A stretch of 64,000 nucleotides of DNA, from positions 1 to 64,000 of the IMG/VR virus record IMGVR_UViG_3300043675_000007, one strand, 5' to 3'. The stretch's first letter is position 1. Each line of letters begins with the position of its first letter. The DNA comes from a virus. Shown one piece after another: positions 9,563 to 56,853 of the stretch. Position numbers and translations under genes: made by a program. The notes under the pieces were generated by a model. That model did not search any database. It had not been told where the DNA came from and worked only from the letters and a program-made list of their open reading frames with translations.

Positions 9563-10012
9563 CTAGGGCGGGGCGGGCGCGCTTAACATGCCAGGGACTG
9601 GCAAGCTATAGGGGTTTTCGTGCGCGTCCAAGTGTGTCCAGGTAATCCCGACGACGAGCGGCATCCACATCTTGCCGGCATTCGCCTTCAAAGTGGCGAG
9701 ATCTTCGGTGCTGAAATTGGCCGAGCCGCCGGCGGGCACTGCGTTGATCTTCATGGCCAACTGGTAGGCCTTGAATTTGTCTTTCGCTTCCGGGTTGTGC
9801 CCCTGTTCGACGAAGAGAGCGGAGCGGATGAGGACGCTTCGAAGCGTAAATCCTTCCGGGTCCTCTTTGTCGGTGATGGGTTGCCCTTTCAGGTCCACGA
9901 ACGGCACATCGAGAAGGATTTTCATAGGGGCTGGGACTGTACCCGCGCGCTTGCTGGGTTTCAAGGCATCGTCGCTTAAGACACGCAGGATGCTGCGCTT
10001 AAGGTCCAGCAT
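9563..10012 (-). CDS. Unrecognised phage protein downstream of the tail fibre
   Basis: 149 residues from an ATG at 10012, 2 bp after the TAA of the fibre gene, with GGGCGG upstream; a start at 10027 is also possible. The sequence is soluble and mixed alpha/beta. The segment ALFVEQGHNPEAKDKFKAYQ resembles small regulators or chaperones of phage assembly that carry a helical centre, but I do not recognise the family. Its last codons contain dyad element a. Confidence 0.65.
   Translation of the reverse strand: MLDLKRSILRVLSDDALKPSKRAGTVPAPMKILLDVPFVDLKGQPITDKEDPEGFTLRSVLIRSALFVEQGHNPEAKDKFKAYQLAMKINAVPAGGSANFSTEDLATLKANAGKMWMPLVVGITWTHLDAHENPYSLPVPGMLSAPAPP
9589..9603. promoter_or_regulatory. 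Dyad element a: TGCCAG-GGA-CTGGCA
   Basis: Perfect 6-3-6 inverted repeat lying in the last codons of the preceding gene, 80 bp upstream of the sulfotransferase-like gene start. Flanked by TATAG. One of six copies in the window; see findings. Confidence 0.6.
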
Positions 10013-10014
10013 CG

Positions 10015-11871
10015 TTATACCGCCCATTTGGCGAAGAGGTAATTCTCAACGTTGGTAATCTCGGTGCCTGAGAGCACGCGCTGGTACATGATGATTTCAG
10101 CGATGGAATGCGCTAACAAGATACCGCCGCTGATGGTCTGATCGGCACCAATCCAGGTGAGCGGCGTGGTGCCGGCGCCGGTCGCTCCCGTGCCGCTGCC
10201 GGCGGCCGTGCGGGCTTGGCGGAAGGCGAAATTCCCGGAGGCACCGGCGTATGTCGCATTTGCTTGAAAGGCGACCCCGTTGGTCCATGTCGCGGTGGAT
10301 GAGCCGATCACTGCGGTACCAGTTTTGGTGAGCCCTACCTTAGCGACGCTCGCCGCGCTGTTCATATAGAAGGCAAGGCCGCCATTGCCATTTGACCCAA
10401 TGATGGCCATGGCCGAGGCGGTCACCGCCGTATTCGGCCGCACTACCACGAAGAAAGTCACGTTGCCTGCCGTCAGATTGATTGGGTCCTTGATGACCGG
10501 AATCGCAGGACTGACAGCTGCAATCTTTATGATGTTGAGGCCATTAAGCGGCGTCGCATCGATCGTTGACATACCCGTTACGCTTGTCGCATTCGAGGCG
10601 AGCACGCCGGTTATCCATGGGGTTGATTGCTGGAAGAGCTGAACGATGGCGCCTGAGCTGCCCAATATGTTGCTCGAAGTCCACCAGAGCACCAGATCCG
10701 CAATGGTGCCCGGGACGGCTGCGCTGGCCCCGGAGATCGTGAGTGTTGCGTTGGGCGTTGAACCACCGACTACCGCCCCAGTCACCGTCAGCGATGTTGT
10801 ACCGGCAACAGTGTGAGTGCCATCGGTGACGGTGAGGGAACTACCGGCAGATCCTGCATTGATCACCAACTGGCCGGCTGGGTTGGTCGTGAAGTTGACC
10901 GCGGTTCCGGGCGCGAGACTCGCGGCAGTCAGGACGTTATCGCCATTCCACGTGAAGGAGTTGGACGACACATTCACCGCATCGGCGATTTCGCCGATCC
11001 TGGTTACGCACAGCCAGTTCTCCCCGTCCGCGCCATCATCCGACACGGTGGAGAAGATCAGCTGCCCGGGTTCGGCGTGCATGCGCCAAGTGCCCTCGTC
11101 TGGGGTGTCATCGGTATTGCGGATGCGCCACTCAGGTTCGGCACCCGACTGCTCGAAGTTGCCGGCAAGCGTGATATCGGCGTTCGAAACGATTCCTGCG
11201 GCGAAGGTTTGCAGCAGTGGCCAGGTGTTGGCCGCCGCGAGCATCACGTACTGCGGATGATCATTCGCAACAATGGCGGGGTTCGCCACCGTGAAATGCA
11301 GGCCCTCAAGTTTGCTGTGGTCTAACTGCGTCGCATCGACCGCGATCGCGCCGCCCGAGAGTTTGATGCCACCACCAGCGGCCGGTATTGCCCAGGCGAA
11401 GGCATGGCCCGCCTCATTCCACATGACAAGTGCATTCTGGCCGGGGTCAGATAGTCCTAAGCCGGCATTCGGGTCCGGCATGGCCGTCCAGAAACCGGTG
11501 TGGAACATGATGACATCGCCCTCGACGGGAGCGGCAAAGCTCGCAGGATTGGTCTGCGCTATCTCGCCAAACTGAAGCTGCCCGAAGGCAGCGTTATTAT
11601 CCGATACCGCTATGAGCACTTGGCCGGCCAAGAGCCCTGGACCTACCGAGACTTGCGGGCCTAGCCCACCGGTGGTAGCGATCAGGACCGGCGCGGTGAC
11701 ATTGCCACCTTTGCCGCCGGCCATCTGCAGCTCCGCGATGGCAACATTCGCCTGGTTGACCGCGCTGATCGTTTGCTGGAGCGATTGGACAAGCTGATTG
11801 CCCTTCGCCATTTCCCAGTTCTGTTGGAACTGGATATCGAGGCTTCCAACGCGCGTGACTTTGGAGGCCAT
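10015..11871 (-). CDS. Tail fibre / appendage protein with C-terminal LamG-like domain
   Basis: 618 residues. Residues 1-55 are helical (QFQQNWEMAKGNQLVQSLQQ), likely a trimerising stem or virion attachment. The middle is rich in Ala, Gly, Thr and Ser with repeated beta-strand patterns (TLTISGASAAVPGTIADLVL). The C-terminal about 200 residues look like a concanavalin/LamG lectin: SIAEIIMYQRVLSGTEI then NVENYLFAKW is the typical ending of such domains. It lies in a run of fibre and hub genes. Receptor or polysaccharide binding is inferred. Confidence 0.75.
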   Translation of the reverse strand: MASKVTRVGSLDIQFQQNWEMAKGNQLVQSLQQTISAVNQANVAIAELQMAGGKGGNVTAPVLIATTGGLGPQVSVGPGLLAGQVLIAVSDNNAAFGQLQFGEIAQTNPASFAAPVEGDVIMFHTGFWTAMPDPNAGLGLSDPGQNALVMWNEAGHAFAWAIPAAGGGIKLSGGAIAVDATQLDHSKLEGLHFTVANPAIVANDHPQYVMLAAANTWPLLQTFAAGIVSNADITLAGNFEQSGAEPEWRIRNTDDTPDEGTWRMHAEPGQLIFSTVSDDGADGENWLCVTRIGEIADAVNVSSNSFTWNGDNVLTAASLAPGTAVNFTTNPAGQLVINAGSAGSSLTVTDGTHTVAGTTSLTVTGAVVGGSTPNATLTISGASAAVPGTIADLVLWWTSSNILGSSGAIVQLFQQSTPWITGVLASNATSVTGMSTIDATPLNGLNIIKIAAVSPAIPVIKDPINLTAGNVTFFVVVRPNTAVTASAMAIIGSNGNGGLAFYMNSAASVAKVGLTKTGTAVIGSSTATWTNGVAFQANATYAGASGNFAFRQARTAAGSGTGATGAGTTPLTWIGADQTISGGILLAHSIAEIIMYQRVLSGTEITNVENYLFAKWAV

Positions 11872-11874
11872 CGG

Positions 11875-14010: not shown

Positions 14011-15668
14011 CAGCTGACGACGCCCTTGACATTGGGTCCGCTCGAACCGGAGACGAACACTGCGGTGCCGCCGGAGAGCTCGATCGCCTTGCCCGCTGCG
14101 CCGCCATTGGAGAAGGCACCGAAGTGTCCTGCGTGCGTCGTCCCAGGATTCGTGCCGTTCGCACCCACTGCACCAAAGTCGCCGCCAGGTTGCGCCGTGC
14201 CGATGCTGCCCGTGCCGTTATTGGTACCGGTGCCAGCGGCGCCGAAGGTGCCATTGGGGCCCGTCGAGGCATCGCCGCCATCCTGCGCAATGACACTGCC
14301 GCCGCCGATGAAGACGCCGCGTCCGCCGCGTCCGCCGCGACCGCCGCCTGCGCCGCCACCGCCGCCACCGCCGTTGCCAAGACCGTTGCTGCCGCCACCG
14401 CCATCGTCCGCGCCGGATGCGCCTCCTCCACCGCCGCCGCCCCAAATGAAGCCACCGGCATTGGTGATGTTGAAGGTCGATCCGGACCCAGGGCCCAAGA
14501 TGGCTTTGCCGCCGGGCTTACCCAGCGAGGCAGAGAGCACCGTGGCGCCGGAACCGGGAAAGCTCGCCACCGCCCCATCGCCGCCATCACCGCCCTTGCC
14601 GATGATGTAGCCCAAGTTGATCAGGTTGATCGTGCAGCCGGAGATAAGACCCGAGAGGTCGATCGCTGGCGTGAGGGGATTGGAAGCCTCAACGATTACG
14701 CCTTGTGCTACCAGAATGTTGATCGTCGCCGGAGCCCCCAACGTTCCAACAATGGCCTTTAAATTCCAGTCGAGGCAGTTGCTCGCGATGGTGATCGGCA
14801 GCGTGGTGCCGGAGCCTGCGTTTAAGTTTCCAGTCTGGCTCACCAGCCACTTATTGAGCGCGGCGTTGTAGAGCAGGCTGAATTTGTCCACCGCGCCTGG
14901 ACCTGTGCCGAGCACCGGGTTGACGCCGTTCTGAAACAGGAACACCGCATTCCACGTGAGCAGGCGCGAGCCCGTGCCGTCCTGAACCACGAGCAAGTCG
15001 ATCTTCATGCCATCGTGCACATTCGCGGGCGCACCCATCACGCGATTGCCGGTCAGGGTGAGGCTCTGGCTGTTGCCCAGGTTGCAGTCGATGATCGTCG
15101 TCGGCAGCTCGGTCGCATTCTGAAAGGGGAAGCTCGTCGGGATACTGATCGAGTTCAAGACGATCGTATTGGCGATGACTTCCGCACCGGTGCGGGACTG
15201 GCGCACCCAGTTGGCCGCAGGGATGCCATTCAAGGAAGTGGCGCTCGAGGCGGCCGCCACCACCGCGAAGCAGTTGGTGCCATCGCACCAGATCAGGCGA
15301 ATCTCGCCGGTCTGCACCGTCGTGGTCGACGTTGAACCCGAGTAGGTGAACTGCAGCGGCTGGCCGGTCTGATTGTTGATGAGATACATCTTCCCCGGCA
15401 CGCTCGAGGGCACGGTCACGACAACAGTCCCCAAGGGCGGCGTGCCGACAAAGAGCAAGGAGAAAAACCTTGAGGTCGACGCGGCGCCTGGCGATAAAGC
15501 GGGCAGGGAGAAAGTCGTCGCACTGCCGATGTTGATCGCGGTCCAGCCGGTGATCGAGGTATCGAGCAGGTTCAGCGCATCGGAATTGAGCGTCGCTCCC
15601 CATGTGTTGTTGTACGCGCCGGTCGCTGGCAGGCGCACTTGCAGGAAAGTCGTGAATGAATCAGCCAT
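14010..15668 (-). CDS. Tail fibre protein with glycine-rich C-terminal domain
   Basis: 552 residues. The N-terminus (FLQVRLPATGAYNNTWGATL) is a common fibre/virion-attachment start; the middle is beta-rich. From about residue 355 it becomes extremely glycine-rich (GYIIGKGGDGGDG, then runs of up to eight Gly between 400 and 460), ending in a shorter GGTAVFVSGSSGP segment. Poly-glycine C-termini of this sort form polyPro-II-type bundles in some phage adhesins and receptor-binding tips. The gene shares the base at 14010 with the hub gene start. Receptor binding is inferred. Confidence 0.7.
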   Translation of the reverse strand: MADSFTTFLQVRLPATGAYNNTWGATLNSDALNLLDTSITGWTAINIGSATTFSLPALSPGAASTSRFFSLLFVGTPPLGTVVVTVPSSVPGKMYLINNQTGQPLQFTYSGSTSTTTVQTGEIRLIWCDGTNCFAVVAAASSATSLNGIPAANWVRQSRTGAEVIANTIVLNSISIPTSFPFQNATELPTTIIDCNLGNSQSLTLTGNRVMGAPANVHDGMKIDLLVVQDGTGSRLLTWNAVFLFQNGVNPVLGTGPGAVDKFSLLYNAALNKWLVSQTGNLNAGSGTTLPITIASNCLDWNLKAIVGTLGAPATINILVAQGVIVEASNPLTPAIDLSGLISGCTINLINLGYIIGKGGDGGDGAVASFPGSGATVLSASLGKPGGKAILGPGSGSTFNITNAGGFIWGGGGGGGASGADDGGGGSNGLGNGGGGGGGAGGGRGGRGGRGVFIGGGSVIAQDGGDASTGPNGTFGAAGTGTNNGTGSIGTAQPGGDFGAVGANGTNPGTTHAGHFGAFSNGGAAGKAIELSGGTAVFVSGSSGPNVKGVVS

Positions 15669-15682
15669 GTGTTACCCCAATT

Positions 15683-23769: not shown

Positions 23770-24429
23770 TTAATCAGCCTCAGCCGCTTCCGTCCGGGCT
23801 GGTTTGCGTGCGCGCATCCGTGCGAAATCAACGCTTACCTCGTTGCGATCCTCGACCAACGGCATCTGCGGGGTGGCCTCTGCCAGTCCCGGCTTTCTGC
23901 GCGTCACGGCCTTGGTGGCCACGTCGCGATTCTTGTTGTAGTACTGGTCTCGCTGCGCCTTCATATGCTCGGGCATCTTCATCAGCACAGTGGTCTCATC
24001 ACCGATCACATCACCGTGCTTCGCCAAGCGGCCAGTGAAGGACTCCGTGGGCAAATCTTCCTCGTCGATCTCTTCGGGCTTGACGAACATCCAGCCTTCG
24101 CGCAAGGAGGCGAGCAGGTTGGCATCGTCCCCGTGGCGGCGGCGGTGGCGGGCAACCCAGCAGAGCACATAACCCGGAGGGTCGGGGAAGGAGGGCAGGG
24201 AGTAGGCACGGCGCCAATTGCGCTGGTCATCCCGGTCAACGGCGGTCGCGGCGCTCGCATCCTGTTTCAAGGAGCGGCCTTGCGTGCGATCGACACCATG
24301 GACGTTGTTGGTCTTGGCGCGCTTCTGCGCCCGCTGCTTGGCGATCGCTGGGGCTTTCGCCGCTCGAGAGATGGCCTGCGCCTTAAGTTCCGTGGCGGAC
24401 GGGCCGCCGATTTCGATAGTGCTGCTCAT
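23770..24429 (-). CDS. Conserved capsid-cluster protein of unknown function
   Basis: 219 residues, basic. It carries PPGYVLCWVARHRRRHGDDA and REGWMFVKPEEIDEEDLP, a pattern seen in many phages next to capsid and scaffold genes. Helical ends, many Arg and Lys residues. Shares ATGA overlap with the scaffold gene stop, so it is translationally coupled. Possibly a head-assembly factor; not shown. Confidence 0.7.
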   Translation of the reverse strand: MSSTIEIGGPSATELKAQAISRAAKAPAIAKQRAQKRAKTNNVHGVDRTQGRSLKQDASAATAVDRDDQRNWRRAYSLPSFPDPPGYVLCWVARHRRRHGDDANLLASLREGWMFVKPEEIDEEDLPTESFTGRLAKHGDVIGDETTVLMKMPEHMKAQRDQYYNKNRDVATKAVTRRKPGLAEATPQMPLVEDRNEVSVDFARMRARKPARTEAAEAD

Positions 24430-25475
24430 CGGGATGATTGCTCCATGGAGACGGCTTCGCGAAGGAATTGGATGACGTCCCGATCGTTGTCGGGGCTCAT
24501 GCCCACACTGCGCATGGTCTTGATTTCTTCCGTGGTCAAGGTGCGCCGATTGCCTTGGGCGATGCGCCCGTTACCGGCGCCGCGGTCAGTGACGCGCATC
24601 GCGGGAGCTCGACCCCGCTCGTTTCGCGTGTCGCGATCGCGCCCCTCGTCATCGTCATCATCGTCACCCTCGCCAGGGCCATCATCGATCTCGTTGCCGC
24701 GCGCCTGCTTGCCCTTGCCCGTCATTACGGGCAGATCAGGGAACTTGGCTTTCAGTAGCTTCGCCACTTCCTTGAAGGTCTCGTCGGAATTGGCATCGAA
24801 CCCATCCTCGTTCAGGAGTTTGAGGAAAATGGTCGACGCGGCCGCCTTCTCAATCTCGTGCTCGGGGTCTTCCCACCAATCCTCATTCGCGAGGATGAAA
24901 CGGCTTCCGGCAGGGGTCGGGCCCTTCACCGGCGCCGCCTGGCGCGGCTGTTGGGTGCCGCCGCCTGGCTGATCCCCGCCGGCGTCGCGCCGTACCTGGG
25001 TGCCGGTCAATTTCGCGTGATACTCCCCATCCGCCTTGATCATCTTCGCCGTGATCTTGGCCACGGCCGCGGAGTCGCCTTTCTCATTGGCTTCGGTGAG
25101 TTCCGCCTCGAGCGCGGCCATCGCCTTCTCGTGGGCGTCCTTCAAGGCACTCGCCCCCCCACGCTCTACATCGACGCCACCTTCGTACTGCTTGCGCAGG
25201 TCCGCGATCTCGCGCTGGTGTTGCGCCTGGCTGTCGGCGAGCTTCTGGTCAAACTGTTTGGTTAAGGAGCGCTGCATGCGCGTCATGCGCTTGAACAGTT
25301 CCTCTTCGGTCTTGGAGCGTTTGCCGCCGCGAGCGCGGTCATCATCGTCCCGTACCTGAGAAGCAATGTCGGAGCGTGGTGCCCGGCGTGCCACCGCTTT
25401 ACCGGCGTCCGCCTCGCTTAAGTCGACACTGATTTCCCTCTCAGGAGCTGATCGCGCCTGGCTTTCGTTGGCCAT
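24426..25475 (-). CDS. Scaffold-like protein
   Basis: 349 residues, highly charged. N-terminal disordered region, then a coiled coil from about residue 55 to 170 (EEELFKRMTRMQRSLTKQFD and EKAMAALEAELTEANEKGD), a Gly/Pro linker, and an acidic run (DDDDDDEGRDRDTRN) before a basic C-terminus. These are typical of phage scaffolding proteins, and it lies upstream of the capsid cluster. It is the first gene after dyad element b, about 60 bp away. Confidence 0.7.
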   Translation of the reverse strand: MANESQARSAPEREISVDLSEADAGKAVARRAPRSDIASQVRDDDDRARGGKRSKTEEELFKRMTRMQRSLTKQFDQKLADSQAQHQREIADLRKQYEGGVDVERGGASALKDAHEKAMAALEAELTEANEKGDSAAVAKITAKMIKADGEYHAKLTGTQVRRDAGGDQPGGGTQQPRQAAPVKGPTPAGSRFILANEDWWEDPEHEIEKAAASTIFLKLLNEDGFDANSDETFKEVAKLLKAKFPDLPVMTGKGKQARGNEIDDGPGEGDDDDDDEGRDRDTRNERGRAPAMRVTDRGAGNGRIAQGNRRTLTTEEIKTMRSVGMSPDNDRDVIQFLREAVSMEQSSR

Positions 25476-25534
25476 TGAAGATACCTCGGTGGATTGACCC
25501 CCGAGAATCTATGCGTGTTGGAACTGCTTAAACA

Positions 25535-25549
25535 TGCCAGCAACTGGCA
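25535..25549. promoter_or_regulatory. Dyad element b: TGCCAG-CAA-CTGGCA
   Basis: Perfect 6-3-6 inverted repeat in the 87-bp gap upstream of the scaffold gene (start 25475). Minus strand reads GCCAGTTGCTGGCATGTTT. One of six related sites. Confidence 0.65.
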
Positions 25550-28218: not shown

Positions 28219-28476
28219 CTACGGCTTGGCATTGGGAATGCCTCCCGCTACATCCTCACCTTCGCCCGGGCCCTCACCGGTGCGCCGCGTGCCTGGCGCT
28301 TGATTACCGATCTCTACGCCGGCGCCGGTGTTCGCACTCGCCTCGTCGTTTGAGAGCGGGTCGCGGTGGCCGACGGTGGGCCAGCGCCCCTCTTCCTGAT
28401 CCTGATCGTCGTGACTGATAAGCGGGCCCAGCGTCGATGACTTGATCGGCGGCCGTTCTTTGTGACTTCGTCCCAT
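28219..28476 (-). CDS. Small hydrophilic protein
   Basis: 85 residues, charged and predicted disordered (SHDDQDQEEGRWPTVGHRD). First gene after dyad element c (28513-28527, 37 bp away). No known family. Confidence 0.5.
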   Translation of the reverse strand: MGRSHKERPPIKSSTLGPLISHDDQDQEEGRWPTVGHRDPLSNDEASANTGAGVEIGNQAPGTRRTGEGPGEGEDVAGGIPNAKP

Positions 28477-28512
28477 AAAGGTGCGGCTCCCGGTTGTAGG
28501 AGCCGCACTATA

Positions 28513-28527
28513 TGTCAGCGACTGGCA
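28513..28527. promoter_or_regulatory. Dyad element c: TGTCAG-CGA-CTGGCA
   Basis: One mismatch in the left arm of the 6-3-6 dyad. It lies between two minus-strand genes, with TATAT next to it (minus strand CTGACATATAGTGCGGC). Related to sites a, b, d, e and f. Confidence 0.55.
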
Positions 28528-29583: not shown

Positions 29584-29800
29584 TCGCCATCTCCTGCTCG
29601 AGGGCCTGTTCTCGGTAGAACGATTGATTCTGGCCGCCAGCATAGAGGCGTGCCAACACCGCGGCAACGCCGGAGAAGCCCATACCAAGTTCATCGGATG
29701 CGGCCGCGAAGTGCCGCGGGGAGATATCAGACGTGCCGGCCTTGAGCTTGGAGCGAAGAAACCCGCGCGCTGCGCGCACCTGCGGCGCCGGCATGCTCAT
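29576..29800 (-). CDS. Small helical protein following the portal
   Basis: 74 residues from ATG at 29800, ATGA overlap with the portal stop. MPAPQVRAARGFLRSKLKAG and DELGMGFSGVAAVLARLYAG are helices. The protein at 32673 has a similar MPAPQLRKLARARF stretch, which may be a shared short segment. Confidence 0.6.
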   Translation of the reverse strand: MSMPAPQVRAARGFLRSKLKAGTSDISPRHFAAASDELGMGFSGVAAVLARLYAGGQNQSFYREQALEQEMANE

Positions 29801-32562: not shown

Positions 32563-32640
32563 TGATTCGTAGGCCAGGGGGGCGCGCTCCGTGAGGAATA
32601 GGGCGCCAAGGAGCGTACAGCGGCAGGAATTGGGCTTACA

Positions 32641-32655
32641 TGCCAGCGGCTGGCA
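32641..32655. promoter_or_regulatory. Dyad element d: TGCCAG-CGG-CTGGCA
   Basis: Perfect 6-3-6 inverted repeat 79 bp upstream of the portal start, followed by TGCCCTATATG on the plus strand. One of six related sites. Confidence 0.65.
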
Positions 32656-36834: not shown

Positions 36835-38676
36835 TTAGAAAAGATCCTCACTGGCGATGATGGCCGAGCCCGGGCCGACTATAAGCCCCAGGGCGCGCAG
36901 GCGTCCAAGGGTGTTGTCGACGTGGCGGCTGGTGGGGTCGTAGCCGGTTGCCACAGCAAGATCATCGCGCGTGACCGGGTTCGGCCACTTGTGTATCAGG
37001 AAGGTCAAGAATCCGGCCTCCGCCTTGCCAGATTTTGCCAGCCACGCCTCGCGCAATCCTGCACCGGTGGGCATGAGTGTCCGCGTGCCCAGTGCAACCA
37101 GGCCTGGCCCCGTAATCTGGATGTTGGTCCCAGGTCCCTCGACGTAGCCGGCGCCGCGCAGGCGTCCCAGGGTGTTATCCACGTGGCGGCTCGTCGTTGA
37201 GTACAGCGAGAAGCGGGCCAATTGATCGCGGGTCGTCACCCTGTTCTGCCGTTGCGCGAGCACATTCAAGAACGTGCGCTCCGCGGCTCCGAGCACATTT
37301 ATCTCCACCTTCTCGAGCGAGTCCTTCGATAGGCGCGTCTTGCGCACCGGCTTGCCTGCGGGGTGCGCCGCGCTGTTGAGCGCTACCCCATCCCCGACCT
37401 GCGGGTTCATCAGCACCTCCGTGCCGAGCAACTTCATCGAGATTTCCCTCTGCGCCTCAATCGATGGATAGAGAAGGGACACGGCCAGCGCGCTCTTGAC
37501 GTGGGCACGTGACCTATCCACCTGGGCGTCCATCGTCATCTCAAATGCCCCGATGGTCTCATCGAGCAATGCTCGTTCCCGGTCGACCGCTATGGCTTCG
37601 CACGCCTTCCAGCCTTCCTGGTGCCCGCGTTTGTACGAACCATAGGCCATCGCGTTGTGATCAACGGGGCACTGGTGCACAACCGTGGGCATCGGCTGGG
37701 GGCCAAGCCGATGCTGTTGCTCTATCCTGGTAATTGAACCCTCGAGCTCCGAAATCCTCTTGCGCAGCAGGGCCGGGTCATTGGCTTCCGCCTCGGCGAC
37801 CGCCTCCCCGATGATGCTGCGCAAGGCCTCGACGTCCACCGGCGCGGTCTTGACCACTTGGGCGAGGTCATCGTCTTTATCCGGCGTCTTTGAATTATCG
37901 AAGGTCTTCGCCTTCGGGAATTCCATCAGCGTGAAGAGGTTCGCCTCGCCCGAACACACCCAGCCGGTGCCGGTTTTGAGTTTCGGCATGGAATCGGTGA
38001 TCTGCTCGCGCAGCGCCTTATCCTTGACGTTGGCCTTCATCCATTTGACGACCGGCTCCTGATCAGCGGGCTGCGTCATACGGTGCACGATGACCGTCTC
38101 GCAGCTACCGAGTACCGCATTGTGCAGCGCCTGGACGCGCTGATCGAGCACGATGAGCCTGATCCCCTTCGACCGGCCGCCGGTCGCCACCGCCTTGGCG
38201 TAGTGGATGCTCATGTTCTCCTTGCCGAAGCCGGCGCGCTCTTTGGGGGCAAATTCGTGCGCTTCCTCGATGACGAGGTAGAGCACGCCGCGGATCTTCA
38301 TCATCAGGCGCGGGATGAAGTCCACAAAGAAATGCTGCGCCCCACCCGGGGGGAATTGGGCCATATCGAGTATGGAGAGGCGCAGCGAACCGTTGGCGAC
38401 CACGTCCGCAATGGCTTTGCCGGACGTGTGATGTAGGGGTACATGTCCATGCGGCCCCCCCAGAATCGTGAAAGGCAGGCCGGCGCGCTTACCGTCCGCG
38501 CTCGAGGTCAAGCCCCACCAGTCAGACTTCACCGGATCGATGATGCAGACGCGGTATTCCTCCGCGACCACCTGCTCAACGCACACCTTCCCGGTCGTGG
38601 TCTTGCCGGATCCGGTCTTTCCTAAGATGCCGATGTGTTGGGCAAGGATGGCATCGGGAACGTGGAACTGGCTCAC
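36835..38676 (-). CDS. HerA/FtsK-like ATPase with duplicated C-terminal winged helices
   Basis: 613 residues from a GTG at 38676. Walker A LGKTGSGKTTTGKV near residue 20, Walker B LYLVIEEAHEFAPK near 135, then QALHNAVLGSCETVIVHRMT as in HerA-like translocases. Residues 290-330 are a coiled coil. Two repeats near 475-535 and 552-608 contain exactly the same TSRHVDNTLGRLR core and look like winged-helix DNA-binding domains. It may pump or remodel DNA, or act as a defence/anti-defence ATPase. GTGA overlap with the upstream stop. Confidence 0.75.
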   Translation of the reverse strand: MSQFHVPDAILAQHIGILGKTGSGKTTTGKVCVEQVVAEEYRVCIIDPVKSDWWGLTSSADGKRAGLPFTILGGPHGHVPLHHTSGKAIADVVANGSLRLSILDMAQFPPGGAQHFFVDFIPRLMMKIRGVLYLVIEEAHEFAPKERAGFGKENMSIHYAKAVATGGRSKGIRLIVLDQRVQALHNAVLGSCETVIVHRMTQPADQEPVVKWMKANVKDKALREQITDSMPKLKTGTGWVCSGEANLFTLMEFPKAKTFDNSKTPDKDDDLAQVVKTAPVDVEALRSIIGEAVAEAEANDPALLRKRISELEGSITRIEQQHRLGPQPMPTVVHQCPVDHNAMAYGSYKRGHQEGWKACEAIAVDRERALLDETIGAFEMTMDAQVDRSRAHVKSALAVSLLYPSIEAQREISMKLLGTEVLMNPQVGDGVALNSAAHPAGKPVRKTRLSKDSLEKVEINVLGAAERTFLNVLAQRQNRVTTRDQLARFSLYSTTSRHVDNTLGRLRGAGYVEGPGTNIQITGPGLVALGTRTLMPTGAGLREAWLAKSGKAEAGFLTFLIHKWPNPVTRDDLAVATGYDPTSRHVDNTLGRLRALGLIVGPGSAIIASEDLF

Positions 38677-46836: not shown

Positions 46837-47025
46837 TTACTGCTCCGGCGTGGCGGGAGCAGCCGGCGCGGCTTCGACCGGGTGGTTCTCCATCTCCCCT
46901 AACAACGGCACCAGCGCTTTGGCGGCTGCCTTGGAGATGCTCGATTTGGGCGCATTGGTGCGCTGAATCAGTTGAAGACAGCGGATCGCCCGCAGTAATC
47001 GCTCGGCATTTTTTTGTTCTGTCAC
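46837..47025 (-). CDS. First gene of the early minus-strand operon, unknown
   Basis: 62 residues from a GTG at 47025; an ATG at 47082 is possible but would include the inverted repeat at 47073-47102 in the coding region. TEQKNAERLLRAIRCLQLIQ then a Pro/Ala-rich tail. Helical. Unknown. Confidence 0.5.
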   Translation of the reverse strand: MTEQKNAERLLRAIRCLQLIQRTNAPKSSISKAAAKALVPLLGEMENHPVEAAPAAPATPEQ

Positions 47026-47072
47026 GGTCTCACGTCTCAGGTGGATAGTCTTGGAGGGGGCGGCTGCATCCC

Positions 47073-47102
47073 GTTGAACCACACAAGCGTGAGGGGTTCA
47101 AC
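47073..47102. promoter_or_regulatory. Inverted repeat GTTGAACC-N14-GGTTCAAC (possible operator)
   Basis: Eight-base arms around a 14-base spacer, lying just downstream of the minus-strand promoter and upstream of the first early gene. Position fits an operator, possibly for the DUF3653/DUF3693 proteins. Confidence 0.45.
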
Positions 47103-47147: not shown

Positions 47148-47468
47148 CTAGAAGCTCAGTTGGCGCGGAATCGCAAGCTCTTCCTCAAGAGCCTGCGAGC
47201 GCTCGCGGTGGTACTTTCCCGCGAGCACCATCCCGGGGGTGAAGCGATCGCCTTGCGGTGAGACCAGTTCTCCATGGCGCAGATGCCAACCCGCCCATAC
47301 CTCGCTAATCCCGCCAAGCTCGTGTTCCCAGAGTGAACGAATGAGCGCCAGCGCTCCCGCGGGTGCACTTCCTTGTCGTTTCCAGCGACGTGCCGTGTCT
47401 GGGTGTACTTGGCACACCCTGGCGATCACATCGACCGGAACGCCATACAGCGGCGATTCCGTGAGCAT
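47148..47468 (-). CDS. DUF3653-like DNA-binding protein
   Basis: 106 residues. VIARVCQVHPDTARRWKRQG is a helix-turn-helix; LRHGELVSPQGDRFTPGMV and GWHLRHG are the DUF3653 C-terminal landmarks. DUF3653 proteins occur in phages and prophages, often with DUF3693. Likely a transcription factor in this lysis/early switch region. The gene follows the DUF3693-like one by 10 bp. Confidence 0.75.
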   Translation of the reverse strand: MLTESPLYGVPVDVIARVCQVHPDTARRWKRQGSAPAGALALIRSLWEHELGGISEVWAGWHLRHGELVSPQGDRFTPGMVLAGKYHRERSQALEEELAIPRQLSF

Positions 47469-47478: not shown

Positions 47479-48033
47479 TCAAGTGTTCACATCGAAAGTG
47501 CACGCGGACTCAACGGATCTGTGCGGCCCGTGGTATTGCAGTGCAAAGACGGGTTTCCGGTGCCTGCAAATCATCAACCGCCGTCTGGTGCCGCGTCTGA
47601 ATTTACGGCGTAATAGACGTCGTCTTCGCGACTTACCATAATATACATTCTCACGAACTTGAGAGTACTCGTCGGCGTGAGCGGGAGGTGCGTCGAATGC
47701 CGCTAATCCTAGGGCCGCGACGAGAAAGACGACCGCCGCCCGATCCCGAAAGGCGTCGGCAATTTGTCGCCACACACGACCCGTATCTCCAAAGCGATCG
47801 GCATCCTTCAAACGCTCCGCGTTGACACAGGCAATCACATAGGCGCGGGGCATTTTCAAAAGGTCCGCGACCTTAATGGCCCAGTTATCGCTCATGACCG
47901 TGCCGTTTCGCCACTGGGAAGTTAGCTGCTGCTTCGCACCCAGGAGCTTCGCGACGCGGTAGTCGGACGCGCCGTCGTGTCGGGCGCTGAGCAGGTTCAA
48001 AAGCTCAAGAGTTGTCATTGTCTTGGTGGACAT
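47479..48033 (-). CDS. DUF3693-like membrane-anchored HTH protein with unusual Arg-rich tail
   Basis: 184 residues. N-terminal HTH: DGASDYRVAKLLGAKQQLTS and QWRNGTVMSDNWAIKVADLL, MPRAYVIACVNAERLKDADR; a single TM (AAVVFLVAALGLAAFDAPPA) follows near residue 110. DUF3693 has this HTH-TM plan. The C-terminus after ENVYYGKS is atypically basic (RRRRLLRRKFRRGTRRR), suggesting a lost stop or frameshift. It is divergent from the plus-strand region and likely regulates it. Confidence 0.7.
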   Translation of the reverse strand: MSTKTMTTLELLNLLSARHDGASDYRVAKLLGAKQQLTSQWRNGTVMSDNWAIKVADLLKMPRAYVIACVNAERLKDADRFGDTGRVWRQIADAFRDRAAVVFLVAALGLAAFDAPPAHADEYSQVRENVYYGKSRRRRLLRRKFRRGTRRRLMICRHRKPVFALQYHGPHRSVESACTFDVNT

Positions 48034-48362: not shown

Positions 48363-48383
48363 ATGCCCGCACGAGGCGGGCAT
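48363..48383 (-). terminator. Rho-independent terminator on the minus strand
   Basis: Stem ATGCCCGC/GCGGGCAT (8 bp) with a five-base loop, followed on the minus strand by TTTGTTTTTC. No convincing minus-strand gene ends here, so it may stop antisense transcription or end a small RNA. Confidence 0.6.
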
Positions 48384-48731: not shown

Positions 48732-48800
48732 CCGACAGGGAAAACCAGACCGCAATCCGACCCCCGAATGGGGTCAGAAGCTCAAAAGGAAAACAAGAAC

Positions 48801-49703
48801 ATGGCACGGAACACCGCAATCGAATGGGCAGATCACACTTTCAATCCCTGGTGGGGATGCACGAAGGTTTCCCCTGGCTGTGATCATTGCTATGCGGAAA
48901 AACATTCCAAACGATTCGCTCCCGGTCTTTGGGGCGATGATGCAAAGCGGCGCGTGTTCAATGAGGCGCATTGGGAGGAACTGCTGGTCTTGGACCGCAA
49001 AGCCGCAAAGGACGGTACCAGGCCACGGGTCTTCTGCGCCTCCATGGCCGATGTCTTCGACAATCACCCGGGCGTCACCGGCTACCGCAACCATCTGTGG
49101 CAGTACATCGAGAACACCCCGAATCTTGACTGGCTGCTGCTGACCAAGCGCATCGGCAACGTCAGGAAGATGTACCCGCCCTCGTGGCTCAAAGCACCGC
49201 CACGCAATGTGTGGCTCGGGATCTCCGTCGTGAATCAGGTCGAAGCGGATCGGGATATCCCGAAGCTGCTCGAGACGCCCGCGCACATCCGCTTCCTATC
49301 CTGCGAGCCGCTGCTGGGCGAGATTGATCTGCGTCCCTTCAAACGTGGGCTGTGTCCGACCTGCGCCGGCGATGGGCAAATCCTCGCTCAAGACTGGAAT
49401 CCGCCGCGCATGACCCCGAGCCCTCATCCCTCGCCCGACCCTGAAATGGAGGAGTGCAACGAGTGCCGCGGCACGGGCGAGTGGCCCGATAATCCGGGCC
49501 TGGACTGGGTGATCTGCGGCGGGGAGTCAGGAAGCCACGCGCGCTACATGGACTATGACTGGGCCTTTCGCATTGCATCCGCCTGTCAGGAGATGGGCGT
49601 TGCCTTTTTCATGAAGCAGGGGTCCGCGAAGAATTGGCCGCACTTCAAGCGCTTCGAGTCTTTCCCTGTGATGTTGCAGATCCGCGAGTGGCCCACCAAA
49701 TGA
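48801..49703 (+). CDS. DUF5131 (phage Gp37/Gp68-like) protein
   Basis: 300 residues from ATG at 48801 with AAAGGA upstream. WWGCTKVSPGCDHCYAEKHS supplies the three Cys of a radical-SAM-like cluster; FCASMADVFDNHPGV, LDWLLLTKRIGNV, FLSCEPLLGEIDL and WVICGGESG are typical landmarks of this phage family. A DnaJ-like insertion (CPTCAGDGQ and CNECRGTGEW) is present near residues 185-230. Function unknown; possibly nucleic-acid modification. Confidence 0.85.
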   Translation: MARNTAIEWADHTFNPWWGCTKVSPGCDHCYAEKHSKRFAPGLWGDDAKRRVFNEAHWEELLVLDRKAAKDGTRPRVFCASMADVFDNHPGVTGYRNHLWQYIENTPNLDWLLLTKRIGNVRKMYPPSWLKAPPRNVWLGISVVNQVEADRDIPKLLETPAHIRFLSCEPLLGEIDLRPFKRGLCPTCAGDGQILAQDWNPPRMTPSPHPSPDPEMEECNECRGTGEWPDNPGLDWVICGGESGSHARYMDYDWAFRIASACQEMGVAFFMKQGSAKNWPHFKRFESFPVMLQIREWPTK

Positions 49704-50032
49704 AAAAAGGCACTTTAACCTTCCCAGTGGCCGCGTCTGACCTGTATCAGGTCGGGGACTACTTAAACGTCTGTCTCACCAATCGCGGCTGGAAAGTCGT
49801 GCAGATCACGCTGTGCGAGGGCTGCCGCATCGAGTTCGTAGTGGTGCCCTGGTATGCACGCCTGTGGCGCTGGATTGTTTCATTTTTCAACCAAGGAGAT
49901 GGCCATGTTGATACTGACCCGCCGAGTAGGCGAGATGATAAAGATCGGACTGAACGTCGAAGTGACGGTGATGGCCGTCAATGGCAACCAGGTGCGCATC
50001 GGGGTGAAGGCGCCAAAGACGACCATTGTTGA
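49700..50032 (+). CDS. Small protein with a 128-bp overlap into csrA
   Basis: 110 residues from ATG at 49700 overlapping the DUF5131 stop (ATGA). The first 70 residues ([40 protein letters not shown]) look like a small membrane-anchored protein. The last 40 residues are out-of-frame csrA sequence, polar and low quality, so the original stop has probably been lost. Confidence 0.5.
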
Positions 50033-50084
50033 CCGCGAAGAGATTGCCGTGCGCCGGCGCGAGAATCCGGTCTTCGTTCGATGA
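49905..50084 (+). CDS. csrA: Phage-encoded CsrA/RsmA carbon-storage regulator
   Basis: 59 residues from ATG at 49905, preceded by AAGGAG at 49893-49898; an ATG at 49899 is too close to that site. [20 protein letters not shown] begins as CsrA does; [19 protein letters not shown] and [10 protein letters not shown] follow. CsrA dimers bind GGA-containing RNA hairpins and block translation. The gene lies in the plus-strand early operon. A phage copy could reprogramme host metabolism or virulence, or regulate phage mRNAs. Essential residues (R44-type in VDREE, L4-type) appear conserved. Confidence 0.9.
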
Positions 50085-50296: not shown

Positions 50297-50300
50297 CAGC

Positions 50301-52795: not shown

Positions 52796-52806
52796 TCCCA
52801 AAAGAA

Positions 52807-52839
52807 AAAGGCCCGGGGAGTTCAAAGTCCCGGGCCTTT
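52807..52839. terminator. Convergent bidirectional terminator
   Basis: AAAGGCCCGGG (52807-52817) pairs with CCCGGGCCTTT (52829-52839), an 11-bp stem with an 11-base loop. The minus strand continues with TTTTCTTTT and the plus strand has a short pyrimidine run. It lies between the convergent plus operon and the minus gene at 52905-53426. Confidence 0.75.
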
Positions 52840-52904
52840 CTCAAATCATCCTTGATGGCATCGTCGAACAACGTCTGGCGTGAGGCCAGACTACCGGCTT
52901 TGCC

Positions 52905-53426: not shown

Positions 53427-53499
53427 ACTGTACTTTGTTCCGCGAGGCTGCGCACCTATTTCCTATCAACTAGTCGGTTGCTGGTAGGTCTTAGTCTGA

Positions 53500-53514
53500 T
53501 GCCAGTGATTGGCA
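53500..53514. promoter_or_regulatory. Dyad element e: TGCCAG-TGA-TTGGCA
   Basis: One mismatch in the right arm. 74 bp upstream of the minus gene at 53426 and 23 bp before the plus-strand ATG at 53537. Related to sites a-d and f. Confidence 0.5.
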
Positions 53515-53536
53515 AGTTGCAGTACTATCCCGCCCC

Positions 53537-53770
53537 ATGAGCCGCCTCACCGACTATCGCTTCGAGCTGCAGCACAATGGCTATGTGCTCGGGCATGTGT
53601 GCGCGGGGGGCACGGAGATTTCCGAGGCCTGCAACGATGAGGCGATCTACTGGTTCGGGCTGCGCGCCCTCACCCGCGTGACCGCGCGAGCGCGGGCCTT
53701 AAGCGTACCGTTTGCGGGGAGCGCGCTTCCACGCCCACGGGGAAATTTCGTCCCGCTCATCGTCCGGTAG
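53537..53770 (+). CDS. Possible small plus-strand protein overlapping the 3' end of terL
   Basis: 77 residues: DYRFELQHNGYVLGHVCAGG and EACNDEAIYWFGLRALTRVT look protein-like, but there is no clear ribosome binding site, and the last third is antisense to terL. Could instead be an incidental ORF. Confidence 0.35.
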   Translation: MSRLTDYRFELQHNGYVLGHVCAGGTEISEACNDEAIYWFGLRALTRVTARARALSVPFAGSALPRPRGNFVPLIVR

Positions 53771-55369
53771 CTGCAAGTCGTGGTAGCGGCGCATGTACAT
53801 CCAGGCCATGACCAAGGTTGAGACGTAATCGTCATGATCACCATTTGGGAACTTCGAGGCTTCTTCGATGACCTTGTACGCGAAGGGGCGCGGCGGGTAG
53901 AAGATGCACCCCTTCTCGAGCATAAGGCTGGCGGGGTGGGCTCGCGCGATGAGATCGCCCTGCTTGCCCGGCTTGCCACTGGAGCCTGCGAGGGTGACCG
54001 CTTTGATGGGCAATCGCTTGCGGCGCAGCTCCTGAATGAGAGAGTGACCCGAGGATTTCTTTTCCACCAAGATCCAGTCCGGTGCGAACTCGTTATTGGC
54101 CTCGATGGCAGCGGTCCGCAGGTCCGGATACGCCAGGCGCTCCTGCATCGCATCGAGCAGCATGGCGCACACGCGCCGCTGGCCGGCCACGGGACGCTTT
54201 AGCTCCTTATCCCAGTGCATCTCCTGGTGATCGAATAGGCCCCAGGTCGTGCGCGCCGAGTAGTCGTCCTCTTCCTCTTCCTCAAAGGCGGTATCCCAGA
54301 CCTGAATGATTTCGGAAAACCGGGGCATGGGACGTTCGGTATTGGGCGACATGCGCCATTCCGGCTGTATCCACGGGCGCCACCACTTGCGCTTCAAGAT
54401 CAATCCGCCCTCACCCGTGGGCGCCTGGTTTTGCTGTGCCTGCCAGCCGCGCTCGGACATGTTGGCCTTCTCGTGGTTGACCGTCTTGGCGCTCATGCGC
54501 TTTGGGTCAAGTACCTCGAGCTCCAACTTTCGCGGGTCGGTGAAGATTGGGCCGTCATCCAACAACGGGCCGTCCCCCTTATTCTTGAAGGTGATGCAGC
54601 GGGATCCGGGGTTGAACTCCTGCGGGATGATCAAGTGGCACCAGCGCTTGCCCTCGCGCTCGAGCACGTGGCCGAAGATGTCCATGTCGTGCGTGCGCTG
54701 CCCGACGTAGACTTTCTTCGCCGTGTCCGGATTATTGACGCGCGAGCGCCAGGCGTTGTCGTGCCAGGCAAGGGCGGAGTGGCGTACCGCGTCCGATTCG
54801 ATCTTCTTCGCATCGTGCGGGTCATCGAGGATCTGCGTCGTGCCGCCGACGCCGGTAATGCGCCCCTGCAAAGAGGCGGTCATGCGGTAGCCGCCCTTGC
54901 GGTTGCGGTACATGCCGACCTGGTTCTCATCATCAAAAAGCTCAATCTCGCCGGGCCACTGGCGCTGATACCACTCGGAGGTGATCAAGCGGCGCGAGAG
55001 AATCGCGGCATCATTGGCGAGCACCTGGTCAACGCCGGCGGTTAGGAACTGCTCGCCCGGGATGTGCAGCCAATGCCACGCGGGCCACAGCACCGAGACG
55101 ATCATCGTCTTTGACATGCGCGGCGGGATGTTCACCATCAGGAAGCGAATCTCGCCCAAGGACACGTAGGCCAAGTGGTCGCAAAAGGCGTCCATGTGCC
55201 AGTTCCAAATCGGCGCCTCGGGTAGTAACTGCGTCCAGGCGCGTTTGCAGAAGGTGGCGAGTGAGCGGCGTGCGGAGGCGGCCGCGAGCTCGGTGAACGA
55301 GGTGCGCAGCGCTTGGGGCGTAAGCTTGGGTGCGGGCTTTAGCTGATCGCCCGTCAAGAGGTTGTACAT
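53699..55369 (-). CDS. Terminase large subunit
   Basis: 556 residues. NIPPRMSKTMIVSVLWPAWH is the Walker A region (divergent, PPRMSKT) and GGTTQILDDPHDA Walker B. VWDTAFEEEEEDDYSA starts the nuclease domain; EKKSSGHSLIQELRRKRLPI and PNGDHDDYVSTLVMAWMYM complete the acidic cluster. It converts ATP hydrolysis into DNA packaging through the portal and cuts the concatemer. ATG at 55369 has a GGAAGG site upstream. Confidence 0.9.
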   Translation of the reverse strand: MYNLLTGDQLKPAPKLTPQALRTSFTELAAASARRSLATFCKRAWTQLLPEAPIWNWHMDAFCDHLAYVSLGEIRFLMVNIPPRMSKTMIVSVLWPAWHWLHIPGEQFLTAGVDQVLANDAAILSRRLITSEWYQRQWPGEIELFDDENQVGMYRNRKGGYRMTASLQGRITGVGGTTQILDDPHDAKKIESDAVRHSALAWHDNAWRSRVNNPDTAKKVYVGQRTHDMDIFGHVLEREGKRWCHLIIPQEFNPGSRCITFKNKGDGPLLDDGPIFTDPRKLELEVLDPKRMSAKTVNHEKANMSERGWQAQQNQAPTGEGGLILKRKWWRPWIQPEWRMSPNTERPMPRFSEIIQVWDTAFEEEEEDDYSARTTWGLFDHQEMHWDKELKRPVAGQRRVCAMLLDAMQERLAYPDLRTAAIEANNEFAPDWILVEKKSSGHSLIQELRRKRLPIKAVTLAGSSGKPGKQGDLIARAHPASLMLEKGCIFYPPRPFAYKVIEEASKFPNGDHDDYVSTLVMAWMYMRRYHDLQLPDDERDEISPWAWKRAPRKRYA

Positions 55370-55399
55370 CTCAGGCCTTCCCGCCTGGCGGTTTTTTAT

Positions 55400-55633
55400 T
55401 TAGGCCACGTGGATGCGGATCCGCACACCGGCGTCTTTCGCCAAACGAAAGAGCCACCCAATGGAGAATTGATCGTGCCTGGCACTGCGCAACCTAGAAA
55501 GCCTGGTAAAGCCGACATTGGCGTGGTCGGCCGCTTCCTCGAGCGTGCGAAAGCGTGCGCGGAGGTCCTGATCGATTACCTGCATGATGGCGAGCTTGAA
55601 TTTCGCCTCATCCGATAATTCGGCTTCTTCCAA
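55400..55633 (-). CDS. Small XRE/HigA-like HTH protein
   Basis: 77 residues. FRTLEEAADHANVGFTRLSR contains an HTH, and FSIGWLFRLAKDAGVRIRIH is the typical ending of HigA-type XRE proteins. Placed between terS-proximal and terL genes; could regulate late genes or be an antitoxin-like element. No partner toxin nearby. Confidence 0.6.
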   Translation of the reverse strand: MEEAELSDEAKFKLAIMQVIDQDLRARFRTLEEAADHANVGFTRLSRLRSARHDQFSIGWLFRLAKDAGVRIRIHVA

Positions 55634-55638
55634 CGCGG

Positions 55639-55971
55639 CTACTCGTTATCGCCGCTGCCGGCCGCCTTATCGACCGTGTCCATGATTTGCTGCTCGCGCA
55701 TCCGTCCGCCGATGCCGGAAACACTGGTCGATTGCGAGGGGGCGGCTTTGGCGGCGGCCGCCGGCGCCGGATCAGAGGCGGAAGCGGGCCCGAAGGCCGA
55801 TTGGGTGGGAGGGGAGACGGTGCGGCGTGGGCCCTGGCGATTGCCGTCCGAGTCGCGCGCATCTCCTTCGGAGGGCACCGCGTGCTGCGGTCCGCGGTTC
55901 ACGACGTTCTGCATGCCGGGCTTGTGCGCCGGCGTCGACATCTCTTTGGCGTAATCCGTTGTGTCTGACAT
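55639..55971 (-). CDS. Ala/Pro/Ser-rich disordered protein
   Basis: 110 residues, predicted disordered (PSEGDARDSDGNRQGPRRTV). First gene downstream of dyad element f (66 bp). Function unknown. Confidence 0.55.
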   Translation of the reverse strand: MSDTTDYAKEMSTPAHKPGMQNVVNRGPQHAVPSEGDARDSDGNRQGPRRTVSPPTQSAFGPASASDPAPAAAAKAAPSQSTSVSGIGGRMREQQIMDTVDKAAGSGDNE

Positions 55972-56031
55972 AGCGACTCCCTGGCTTGTAAGGGCTGCAA
56001 ATATGTCACATGCGCGCGTGTAGTCAATGTC

Positions 56032-56853
56032 CTACTTGCCAGTCTCCGGCATCAAGACCCCGCCGGGTACCTTGGTGGCTTCCTCGTATTCCTCTTTCGT
56101 GAAGCCCAACTGCTGCGCAAACTCAGGTCCGACGAGTGGCATCAGGTCTTGCGTGAGGGCGAGAATCTTGGAGGTGGGGACATCATCTAAGTGCAAATGC
56201 GCATGCAGGTGGCGGTGCTGGTGGTTCTCCCAGATGATCTTTTCCAAGAACATGCCGAGTTGCCGGCCCATGCTGGAAAGATACTGATGCTGCTCGCGCG
56301 GATCCGGTAGACGGTATTGCAGCACCCCGCCGACGGAACCGGTGACATGCACGGTGGCCAGCTGCTCGCGGGTGAGCTCGTGGATGGGTTTCCAGCGCGT
56401 GGCGTGCACCGGCTTGCCTTCCCAGGTGAGCACTTCCTCGCTCTCCACTTCCGCGCCGCTCTTCGCATCCTTCTTTCGCACCGTGCGGGTCATCGGCGTC
56501 TCTGAGCGCTCGATAAAGTCCTGCGGGTTGAAGAGCGCCTTGCGTGCCATCGTTTGCAGCACATCGGCCTGTTCGACATCGAGGCTCTTGGCCACTTCCC
56601 GGCTCTTAGCCTCCCGCAAGGGGCGTAGGTACTCCGCAAAGCGCTCGAGCTTGGCTAGGGCCCGGGTGCCGGCTTTGCGCCCGCCCTTGAAGCCTGCCTC
56701 CTTGTACGCGCGCGGGGTATCGAAGTGTTCGAGCCAGCGGGCGCAGAAGACCTTGTCCGATTCTCTGATCGGGAAGTGGTGGGAGGATAGGGGGCGCTTG
56801 ACGGCTTTCTTTTTTACCGGGGCGCTGTTTTTCGCTCGGCCTTTTCCCGCCAC
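56032..56853 (-). CDS. Terminase small subunit
   Basis: 273 residues. DKVFCARWLEHFDTPRAYKE and AGFKGGRKAGTRALAKLERF form the DNA-binding HTH of TerS; EQADVLQTMARKALFNPQDF follows, as in Terminase_2-type proteins. The C-terminus is Glu-rich. Basic N-terminus (KGRAKNSAPVKKKAVKRP). It recognises pac DNA and modulates TerL. The gene is separated from terL by two small genes. Confidence 0.75.
   Translation of the reverse strand: MAGKGRAKNSAPVKKKAVKRPLSSHHFPIRESDKVFCARWLEHFDTPRAYKEAGFKGGRKAGTRALAKLERFAEYLRPLREAKSREVAKSLDVEQADVLQTMARKALFNPQDFIERSETPMTRTVRKKDAKSGAEVESEEVLTWEGKPVHATRWKPIHELTREQLATVHVTGSVGGVLQYRLPDPREQHQYLSSMGRQLGMFLEKIIWENHQHRHLHAHLHLDDVPTSKILALTQDLMPLVGPEFAQQLGFTKEEYEEATKVPGGVLMPETGK
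56037..56051. promoter_or_regulatory. Dyad element f (imperfect): TGCCAG-TCT-CCGGCA
   Basis: Lies over the last codons of terS. One arm mismatch; orientation of the flanks is opposite to elements a-e, which would not matter for a dyad. 66 bp upstream of the gene at 55971. Weakest of the six. Confidence 0.35.

Follow-up and report, generated by a model that had tools for sequence, protein, structure and literature searches.

In a 64,000-nucleotide stretch of an uncultured phage genome (positions 1 to 64,000 of IMG/VR virus record IMGVR_UViG_3300043675_000007; hereafter the window), the three perfect copies of the dyad TGCCAG-N3-CTGGCA are very probably activator sites of late promoters. Several observations point to this: the dyad is enriched in the genome, a -10 element lies at a fixed spacing from each perfect copy, the place of these copies is conserved in related phages, the arm nearer the gene is the better kept, and a gene for a small helix-turn-helix (HTH) protein of the HTH_37 family lies beside the terminase large subunit gene (terL). 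We regard it as likely, on this evidence, that the HTH_37 protein activates the late operons from the perfect dyads through a class II-type promoter, and the identification of HTH_37 as the dyad-binding protein is, taken by itself, probable. The arrangement is a known kind of promoter switch, in an uncharacterised version and with a new candidate activator.

Related phages were found with the portal protein, which gave ten loci, and with terL, which gave six and then more. The long relatives are G5 (65.5 kb) and G10 (62.8 kb), and G011 (76.8 kb; terL 56% identical) is more distant. The perfect dyads of the window, their -10 hexamers and their counterparts in these relatives are as follows.

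9589-9603, minus strand: perfect dyad TGCCAG-TCC-CTGGCA of a putative class C late promoter, before the sulfotransferase-like/ejection-protein/giant-protein operon; orthologous in G10 (14655), degenerate with a spacer of 24 in G5.
9560-9565, minus strand: -10 hexamer TAGTAT, spacer 23.
25535-25549, minus strand: perfect dyad TGCCAG-TTG-CTGGCA (class B), before the operon of the scaffold-like gene (24426-25475) and the major head protein; orthologous in G5, G10, L006, L011, L013 and L032.
25506-25511, minus strand: -10 hexamer TAGATT, spacer 23.
32641-32655, minus strand: perfect dyad TGCCAG-CCG-CTGGCA (class A), upstream of portal gene 29797-32562; orthologous in G5, G10, L005, L006, L007/L008, L010 and L012.
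32612-32617, minus strand: -10 hexamer TACGCT, spacer 23.

The window genome holds six such dyads at up to one mismatch, against 0.28 expected by chance, and six were reached in none of 100 shuffles. All six positions listed in a preliminary description of the stretch, which was made from the letters alone, were confirmed: 9589, 25535 and 32641 are perfect, and 28513, 53500 and 56037 carry one mismatch. The distances from dyad edge to the start of the open reading frame (ORF) came to 36-78 nt, close to the 37-86 bp given there. The same density in shuffled sequence had been named there as grounds for discarding the element; the dyads are denser than in shuffles at up to one mismatch, but at up to two mismatches there are eight sites against 4.81 expected, with at least eight in 10 of 100 shuffles and thus no clear excess. 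Because the excess vanishes at two mismatches, the signal resides in the near-perfect copies. The early operon (36-47 kb), described as free of the dyad, is so at up to one mismatch and contains one two-mismatch site (37026), and the final 4.5 kb of the 68,555-base source record, beyond the window, adds no dyad at up to two mismatches. Among the 22 arms that form perfect 6-3-6 dyads in the window genome, TGCCAG alone has three, and it is also the top arm at up to one mismatch (six sites; runner-up four). The counterpart arm in G10, TGTCAG, has two perfect dyads and four at up to one mismatch and is not the top arm of that genome; in G5 the counterpart is absent among the most frequent arms listed.

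At each of the three perfect dyads, a sigma70-like -10 hexamer of the form TAnnnT starts exactly 23 bp downstream on the gene strand, with no recognisable -35 element. The earlier statement that the sites do not match a sigma70 promoter is therefore right for the -35 and wrong for the -10 of the perfect copies. For the window alone, three of six dyads with a -10 at 23 bp have a chance probability of 3.8e-7 for one spacer and 2.6e-5 over 70 spacers. In G10, for which the spacer was fixed beforehand by the window, three of five dyads have TAnnnT at that distance (chance 3.2e-7). When 25 non-redundant dyads from 16 clade contigs were counted blind to the hexamer, a set that includes four probably chance matches (G5 29089, 23207 and 16847; G10 2083), ten had TAnnnT at spacer 23 on the gene strand; no other spacer from 0 to 69 was found in more than three dyads, the opposite strand gave at most two, and the maximum in 2000 shuffles was five. 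A scan for any perfect 6-3-6 palindrome followed by TAnnnT at 23 or 24 bp returned ten matches in 22 contigs, nine of them TGCCAG-type dyads (L007 and L008 being identical); in the window it found solely 9589, 25535 and 32641, and in G10 solely 14655 and 54824. The half-site form CTGRCA-N23-TAnnnT occurs three times in the window genome, four times in G5 and three times in G10, against shuffle means of 0.33, 0.28 and 0.27. The 16 contigs together contain 17 copies, of which 14 lie at portal, scaffold or 9532-gene starts, one is the G5 site after terL and two are within terL. The shuffles for the spacer and CTGRCA counts were our own dinucleotide shuffles, those for CTGRCA accepting walks of at least 90% of the length.

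The same architecture was followed in 18 orthologous late sites from 11 contigs (class A in eight loci, class B in seven and class C in three), the identical late sites of L007 and L008 being counted once. The spacer to the -10 is 23 bp in 16 sites and 24 bp in two, which places the dyad centre 31 bp (16 sites) or 32 bp (two sites) upstream of the first base of the -10. Mismatches are distributed very unevenly, with 1 in 108 positions of the gene-proximal arm and 20 in 108 of the distal arm. L006, L007 and L008 carry a perfect dyad ahead of the portal gene, and in L005, L009 (G5), L010, L012 and L014 (G10) the gene-proximal half is kept and the far half altered; the stems are broken at late sites of G5, L005, L012, L013 and L032. 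A nearly invariant proximal arm beside a decayed distal arm is what a class II activator predicts, since its proximal subunit touches the polymerase, and is not what a hairpin predicts. At two G10 sites (14655 and 54824), both arms have changed jointly to TGTCAG/CTGACA, indicating that the symmetry itself is preserved there. Six of the 18 sites (G5 classes A and C, L005, L012, L011 and L032) were located by their proximal half site before the orthologous gene, in the case of L011, L032 and G5 class C when the architecture had already been recognised, and these six half-site cases are weaker evidence than the 25 full dyads. In the more distant L115, L116, L117, L118, L033 and L034, which lie outside the 18, no CTGRCA-N22..24-TAnnnT was found before the portal or scaffold gene; the sole match in this set is elsewhere (L115 20060), and in L033 and L034 the scaffold gene was matched only partially.

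The window encodes several HTH proteins. The gene of the candidate regulator lies between the two terminase genes, in the following setting.

55400-55633, minus strand: HTH_37/XRE protein of 77 aa, candidate dyad-binding regulator, between terS (terminase small subunit) and terL; Pfam PF13744, E 1.5e-7.
53699-55369, minus strand: terL, downstream of the HTH_37 gene; PHROG 38, E 7e-62.
56000-56027, minus strand: sigma70-like promoter TTGACT-N16-CATATT (TGn precedes the -10) that lies ahead of gene 55639-55971 and the HTH_37 gene.

The match to the HTH_37 profile (PF13744) scores 31.6 bits against a cut-off of 27. An AlphaFold2 model of the protein (pLDDT 90.2) has four helices in an XRE fold, and its Protein Data Bank (PDB) matches are XRE proteins first, then HipB and restriction-modification C proteins (TM up to 0.75; best Foldseek E 0.0085); the nearest PDB sequences are 2a6c and 2o38. 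An HTH_37 gene adjoins terL in every one of the ten phages with a terL identity of 53% or more (the window, L025, L027, L028, L029, G5, G10, L187, G011 and G012). A profile search of 11 records found the protein in G000 (the window genome), G005, G010, G011 and G012 and not in G013-G018, several of which are fragments. No tblastn match at E 0.01 was found in 50,697 phage records, and no profile match (E 1) in the terL-bearing stretches of phages RW and CRP-901. As a separate observation on these loci, terL of L028 is interrupted by about 1.0 kb (2021-3057) between residues near 84 and 87 (matches at 1761-2021 and 3057-4478), possibly by an intron or other insert.

The promoter upstream of the HTH_37 gene has both hexamers, so the regulator can be produced first. 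Promoter-like sites in the scanned region as a whole are no commoner than in shuffles (3 versus 3.0); the specific form TTGACn-N16-CATATT is found once each in G000, G5, L025 and L029, always before the HTH_37 cluster, and in none of six other records searched. The recognition helix reads RLSRLR in the window and L187, RLSRMR in G5 and RLSRIR in L029, and in these four phages most dyad arms contain GCC/GGC; in G10 it reads RIWNLR, and no G10 dyad arm reads GCC/GGC. We treat this apparent co-variation of recognition helix and operator as a lead, not proof.

The more distant G011 extends the comparison. The TGCCAG-type dyad was not found in the G011 stretches searched, and its HTH_37 protein has diverged to 25% identity (hhalign probability 96.8, E 3e-10), with a different recognition helix. 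A 22-bp word, ACTTGAA-N3-GCAGCTAAGTAA, occurs without mismatch twice in the whole record, before the portal and the scaffold genes. It is a weak inverted repeat (ACTT...AAGT), and in both copies TAnnnT follows 19 bp on, which again puts about 31 bp between the word's centre and the -10.

These observations suggest a mechanism in which a small HTH protein would bind TGYCAG-N3-CTGRCA as a dimer, the 55400-55633 HTH_37 protein being the most likely one. The dyad is centred 31 bp before the -10 hexamer begins, at about -43 if the hexamer is placed at -12 to -7, and there the bound dyad would substitute for the -35 element. The dimer would recruit or stabilise the host sigma70-type RNA polymerase, as in class II activation, for which a site centred in the -41 to -44 zone and a strict spacing to TAnnnT were both found. 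The result would be the switch-on of three virion operons: portal, scaffold/head and 9532-gene/ejection/giant-protein. Where the dyad overlaps a core promoter, as at the 53500 plus-strand gene and the terS-linked dyad of L187, the same site would repress. Binding, the identity of the protein, activation, its timing and the host sigma factor are what we infer here from the sequence features. More tentatively, and at somewhat less than even odds, this clade of uncultured phages may use the terminase-linked HTH_37 as a one-protein switch, an activator of virion operons at -43 and a repressor on core-promoter overlap, whose operator and recognition helix diverged together (TGCCAG to TGTCAG to the 22-bp element of G011) while the geometry stayed fixed. 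On that reading, the joint divergence with fixed geometry would mean that the packaging operon carries its own late-gene activator.

Several points weigh against this reading. Half of the window's dyads (three of six) have no -10 at 23 bp. G5 lacks full dyad symmetry at every late site and L032 retains the proximal half site alone, so a symmetric site is not always required. L025 and L028 carry HTH_37 and yet have no such dyad in the contig stretches examined; neither gave a portal, scaffold or 9532-gene match, so neither tests the late sites. G012, with HTH_37 before terL (terL 53% identical), shows no common late element before its portal and scaffold genes. The adjacency of HTH_37 and terL could be explained by shared ancestry alone, and at 69 terL loci below 53% identity, searched with tblastn only, no convincing HTH_37 was seen (one match at E 0.023, L210), tblastn having also missed the G011 orthologue. 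Two diverged cases underlie the co-variation of helix and operator. A match of TerS to Sigma70_r3 falls below threshold (E 0.01; 16.4 bits versus 25.3) and is taken as chance. The operons were labelled 'late' from their gene content.

The alternative that survives best, although we consider it unlikely, keeps the class II site and assigns it to another protein: the DUF3653 protein (47148-47468), the 184-aa XRE protein (47479-48033), some unrecognised phage protein, for instance an early one of 81 aa (46837-47082), or a regulator of the host. An early operon is a natural place for a middle or late activator, and G5, G10 and L029 have kept the 81-aa protein. However, neither the DUF3653 nor the 184-aa XRE protein, which the preliminary description had named for tests of DNA binding, gave a tblastn match (E 0.01) in the relatives' contigs searched, which leaves the conserved HTH_37 protein as the better candidate. 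The model of the 81-aa protein consists of two helices of low confidence (pLDDT 71) with no HTH, and a host factor would not be expected to alter its site, as in G10 and G011, along with the phage HTH_37. The 81-aa gene (minus strand) itself sits behind TTGACA-N18-CATACT. No member of the sigma70 region 4, Mor, Ogr/Delta or CII families was found in the window genome. A Mor/C activator was rejected as a candidate, PF08765 having no match in the window genome in a search whose control was positive in 1 of 14 genomes (Bacillus subtilis).

The three imperfect dyads have different surroundings.

28513-28527, minus strand: one-mismatch dyad TGCCAG-TCG-CTGACA, abutting TATAGT; shared with L005 and L007 and, as one half, with G5; a -10 at 23 bp is lacking.
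28481-28508, minus strand: G+C-rich hairpin GTGCGGCTCC...GGGAGCCGCAC, just after the 28513 dyad and overlapping what is probably the ribosome-binding site of the ORF at 28476; no T run after it.
53500-53514, no strand assigned: one-mismatch dyad after terL, between the divergent starts 53426 (minus) and 53537 (plus).
53523-53528, plus strand: TACTAT, a -10-like element for the small divergent gene, at 8 bp from the 53500 dyad.
53537-53770, plus strand: small conserved divergent gene, 77 aa, its putative promoter overlapped by the 53500 dyad; relatives in L025, L027, L028, L029, L187 and G10.
56037-56051, no strand assigned: one-mismatch dyad within the 3' end of terS (56032-56853).

The idea of a phage-specific late control element is supported for the three perfect dyads, with their fixed -10 spacing and a place kept in relatives; these three lack the late-promoter architecture. 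Likewise, not every site simply precedes a minus-strand cluster as had been described: 56037 lies inside the 3' end of terS with a promoter between site and gene, and 53500 also faces a plus-strand gene. The 53500-type site is kept after terL in G5, G10, L027, L029 and L187, with a decayed form in L028, and has a -10 at 23 bp in G5 alone. On the opposite strand, a -10 lies 6-10 bp from the dyad in five of six phages and is followed directly by ATG; in L187 it is a perfect TATAAT with TGn. The variable distance between dyad and -10 fits repression, and the 53500 dyad is probably a repressor-like site for the divergent plus-strand gene, which is antiparallel to terL, overlaps its 3' end and has no PHROG match. 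The 56037-type dyad was not seen at this place in G5, L025, L028 or L029, and in the window it is probably weak or incidental. At the same place, L027 has a different dyad and L187 has one (1416) between TTGACA and its -10 region; the latter, overlapping a core promoter, probably represses.

The hairpin at 28481-28508 (arms GCGGCTCC...GGGAGCCGC) is also present in L005 and G5, and a transcript begun just past the abutting TATAGT would miss some of the hairpin's left half, a situation also found at some T4 late genes. No relative of the ORF at 28476 turned up in the contigs searched.

XRE proteins commonly act as repressors, and the dyads could be read as pure repressor operators that keep the late operons off early in infection. 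The 53500 class, 6-10 bp upstream of the other-strand -10, and the L187 1416 dyad, between its promoter elements, would suit such a role. At the late operons, however, all 18 sites keep the spacing of 23-24 bp, conservation is selective for the proximal arm, and the dyads leave the -10 uncovered with no -35 recognised, as activation predicts; we consider pure repression improbable.

An RNA hairpin in the operon transcripts, acting in processing, stability or antitermination, is very improbable. Five of the six dyads are intergenic on the transcribed strand and 28513 adjoins a second hairpin, but the distal arm decays freely while the spacing to a DNA promoter element is kept, and no Rfam match was found at gathering scores. 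Least probable of all, and unsupported by what we found, is the N4-type promoter raised in the preliminary description, in which the dyad is extruded as a template-strand hairpin (6-bp stem, 3-base loop) and read by a virion RNA polymerase. The geometry resembles that of N4 hairpins. PMC4496689 describes requirements for particular bases in the loop and stem of early N4 hairpins, and the central loop base on the template (plus) strand is a purine in five of six window sites, as at N4 position -11 in that source. Against this, the hairpin is broken at several orthologous late sites, where the distal arm has decayed and the -10 distance is fixed, and N4 hairpins serve early genes whereas the dyads precede virion genes. 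No virion RNA polymerase was found: the PF00940 polymerase profile gave no match, though the control was also silent and many small ORFs lay outside the search, and the giant protein had no polymerase match (Pfam with one piece; PDB and PHROGs with both pieces), matching DarB-like antirestriction, methylase, GGDEF and strawberry-notch helicase proteins instead. Two further candidates were rejected: a sigma54 promoter (consensus TGGCAC-N5-TTGCA, with GG and GC about 10 bp apart), since by eye G10 and other sites have CTGACA without GG and no GC at the required distance, and a CsrA-type RNA site, since the GGA loop is confined to the template strand of one site.

The genes around these elements gave several side observations. 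The sulfotransferase-like gene (8993-9532) heads the ejection and giant-protein genes. One giant gene of about 4,600 aa seems to cross the record ends (window 1-5997, minus strand, plus record 60481-68511, minus strand), with DarB-like, GGDEF, methylase and strawberry-notch helicase parts; the ends share a 287-base repeat with four mismatches, which could be a terminal repeat or else the overlap of a circular genome in which strains vary. Besides the true terL, a 613-aa protein (36835-38676, minus strand) has DUF87/HerA-type and terminase-like matches. The window also encodes a glycosyl hydrolase 71 family protein (34501-35859, minus strand), a DUF5131 protein (48768-49703, plus strand; E 1e-68; also in G5) and a CsrA-like protein named by eye from its sequence (49854-50084, plus strand; also G5 15112-15366).

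Judged by its portal protein (31-36% identity), the phage is distantly related to Roseobacter phage CRP-901, Pelagibacter phage HTVC023P and Caulobacter phage RW, and portal alignment revealed no prophage relative in genome contigs. A limited literature search met no description of how late genes are switched on in phages of the CRP-901/HTVC023P/RW type. For these phages, the analysis offers a testable promoter definition, TGYCAG-N3-CTGRCA-N23-TAnnnT, together with a named candidate activator. Other HTH_37/XRE members are mostly regarded as antitoxins and small regulators, and the natural operator and recognition-helix variants could serve as a code-breaking set for this family.

Among known systems, the promoters of the N4 virion RNA polymerase share a short stem and a three-base loop with the dyad, whereas here no such polymerase was found, the stem is not conserved, a sigma70-like -10 is fixed and virion genes are served. 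C proteins can both activate and repress. C.Esp1396I, C.BclI and C.AhdI, of about 80 aa and with an XRE fold, figure in the 50 top-listed PDB matches of the HTH_37 model (TM about 0.5-0.6); C proteins govern the transcription of restriction-modification genes (PMC6237814). Unlike them, the HTH_37 gene has no restriction-modification gene pair seen beside it, and the sequence match here is to HTH_37 (PF13744). Lambda CI bound at OR2 activates PRM as an HTH dimer at a dyad near -42 that contacts sigma region 4, and it represses on core-promoter overlap, as proposed here. The protein in the window differs in having 77 aa and no CI-type C-terminal domain. In the Mu Pm/Mor system, as described in PMC4390567, 5-bp inverted repeats lie in a 16-bp element centred at -43.5 that replaces the -35. 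The arms are 5-6-5 in Pm and 6-3-6 here, and no Mor/C homologue was found in our case. The two share an inverted repeat in a 15-16 bp element near -43, a clear -10, no -35 and the host sigma70 polymerase (established for Mu in the same source and proposed here), with the difference that in the phage described here the site is shared by three virion operons.

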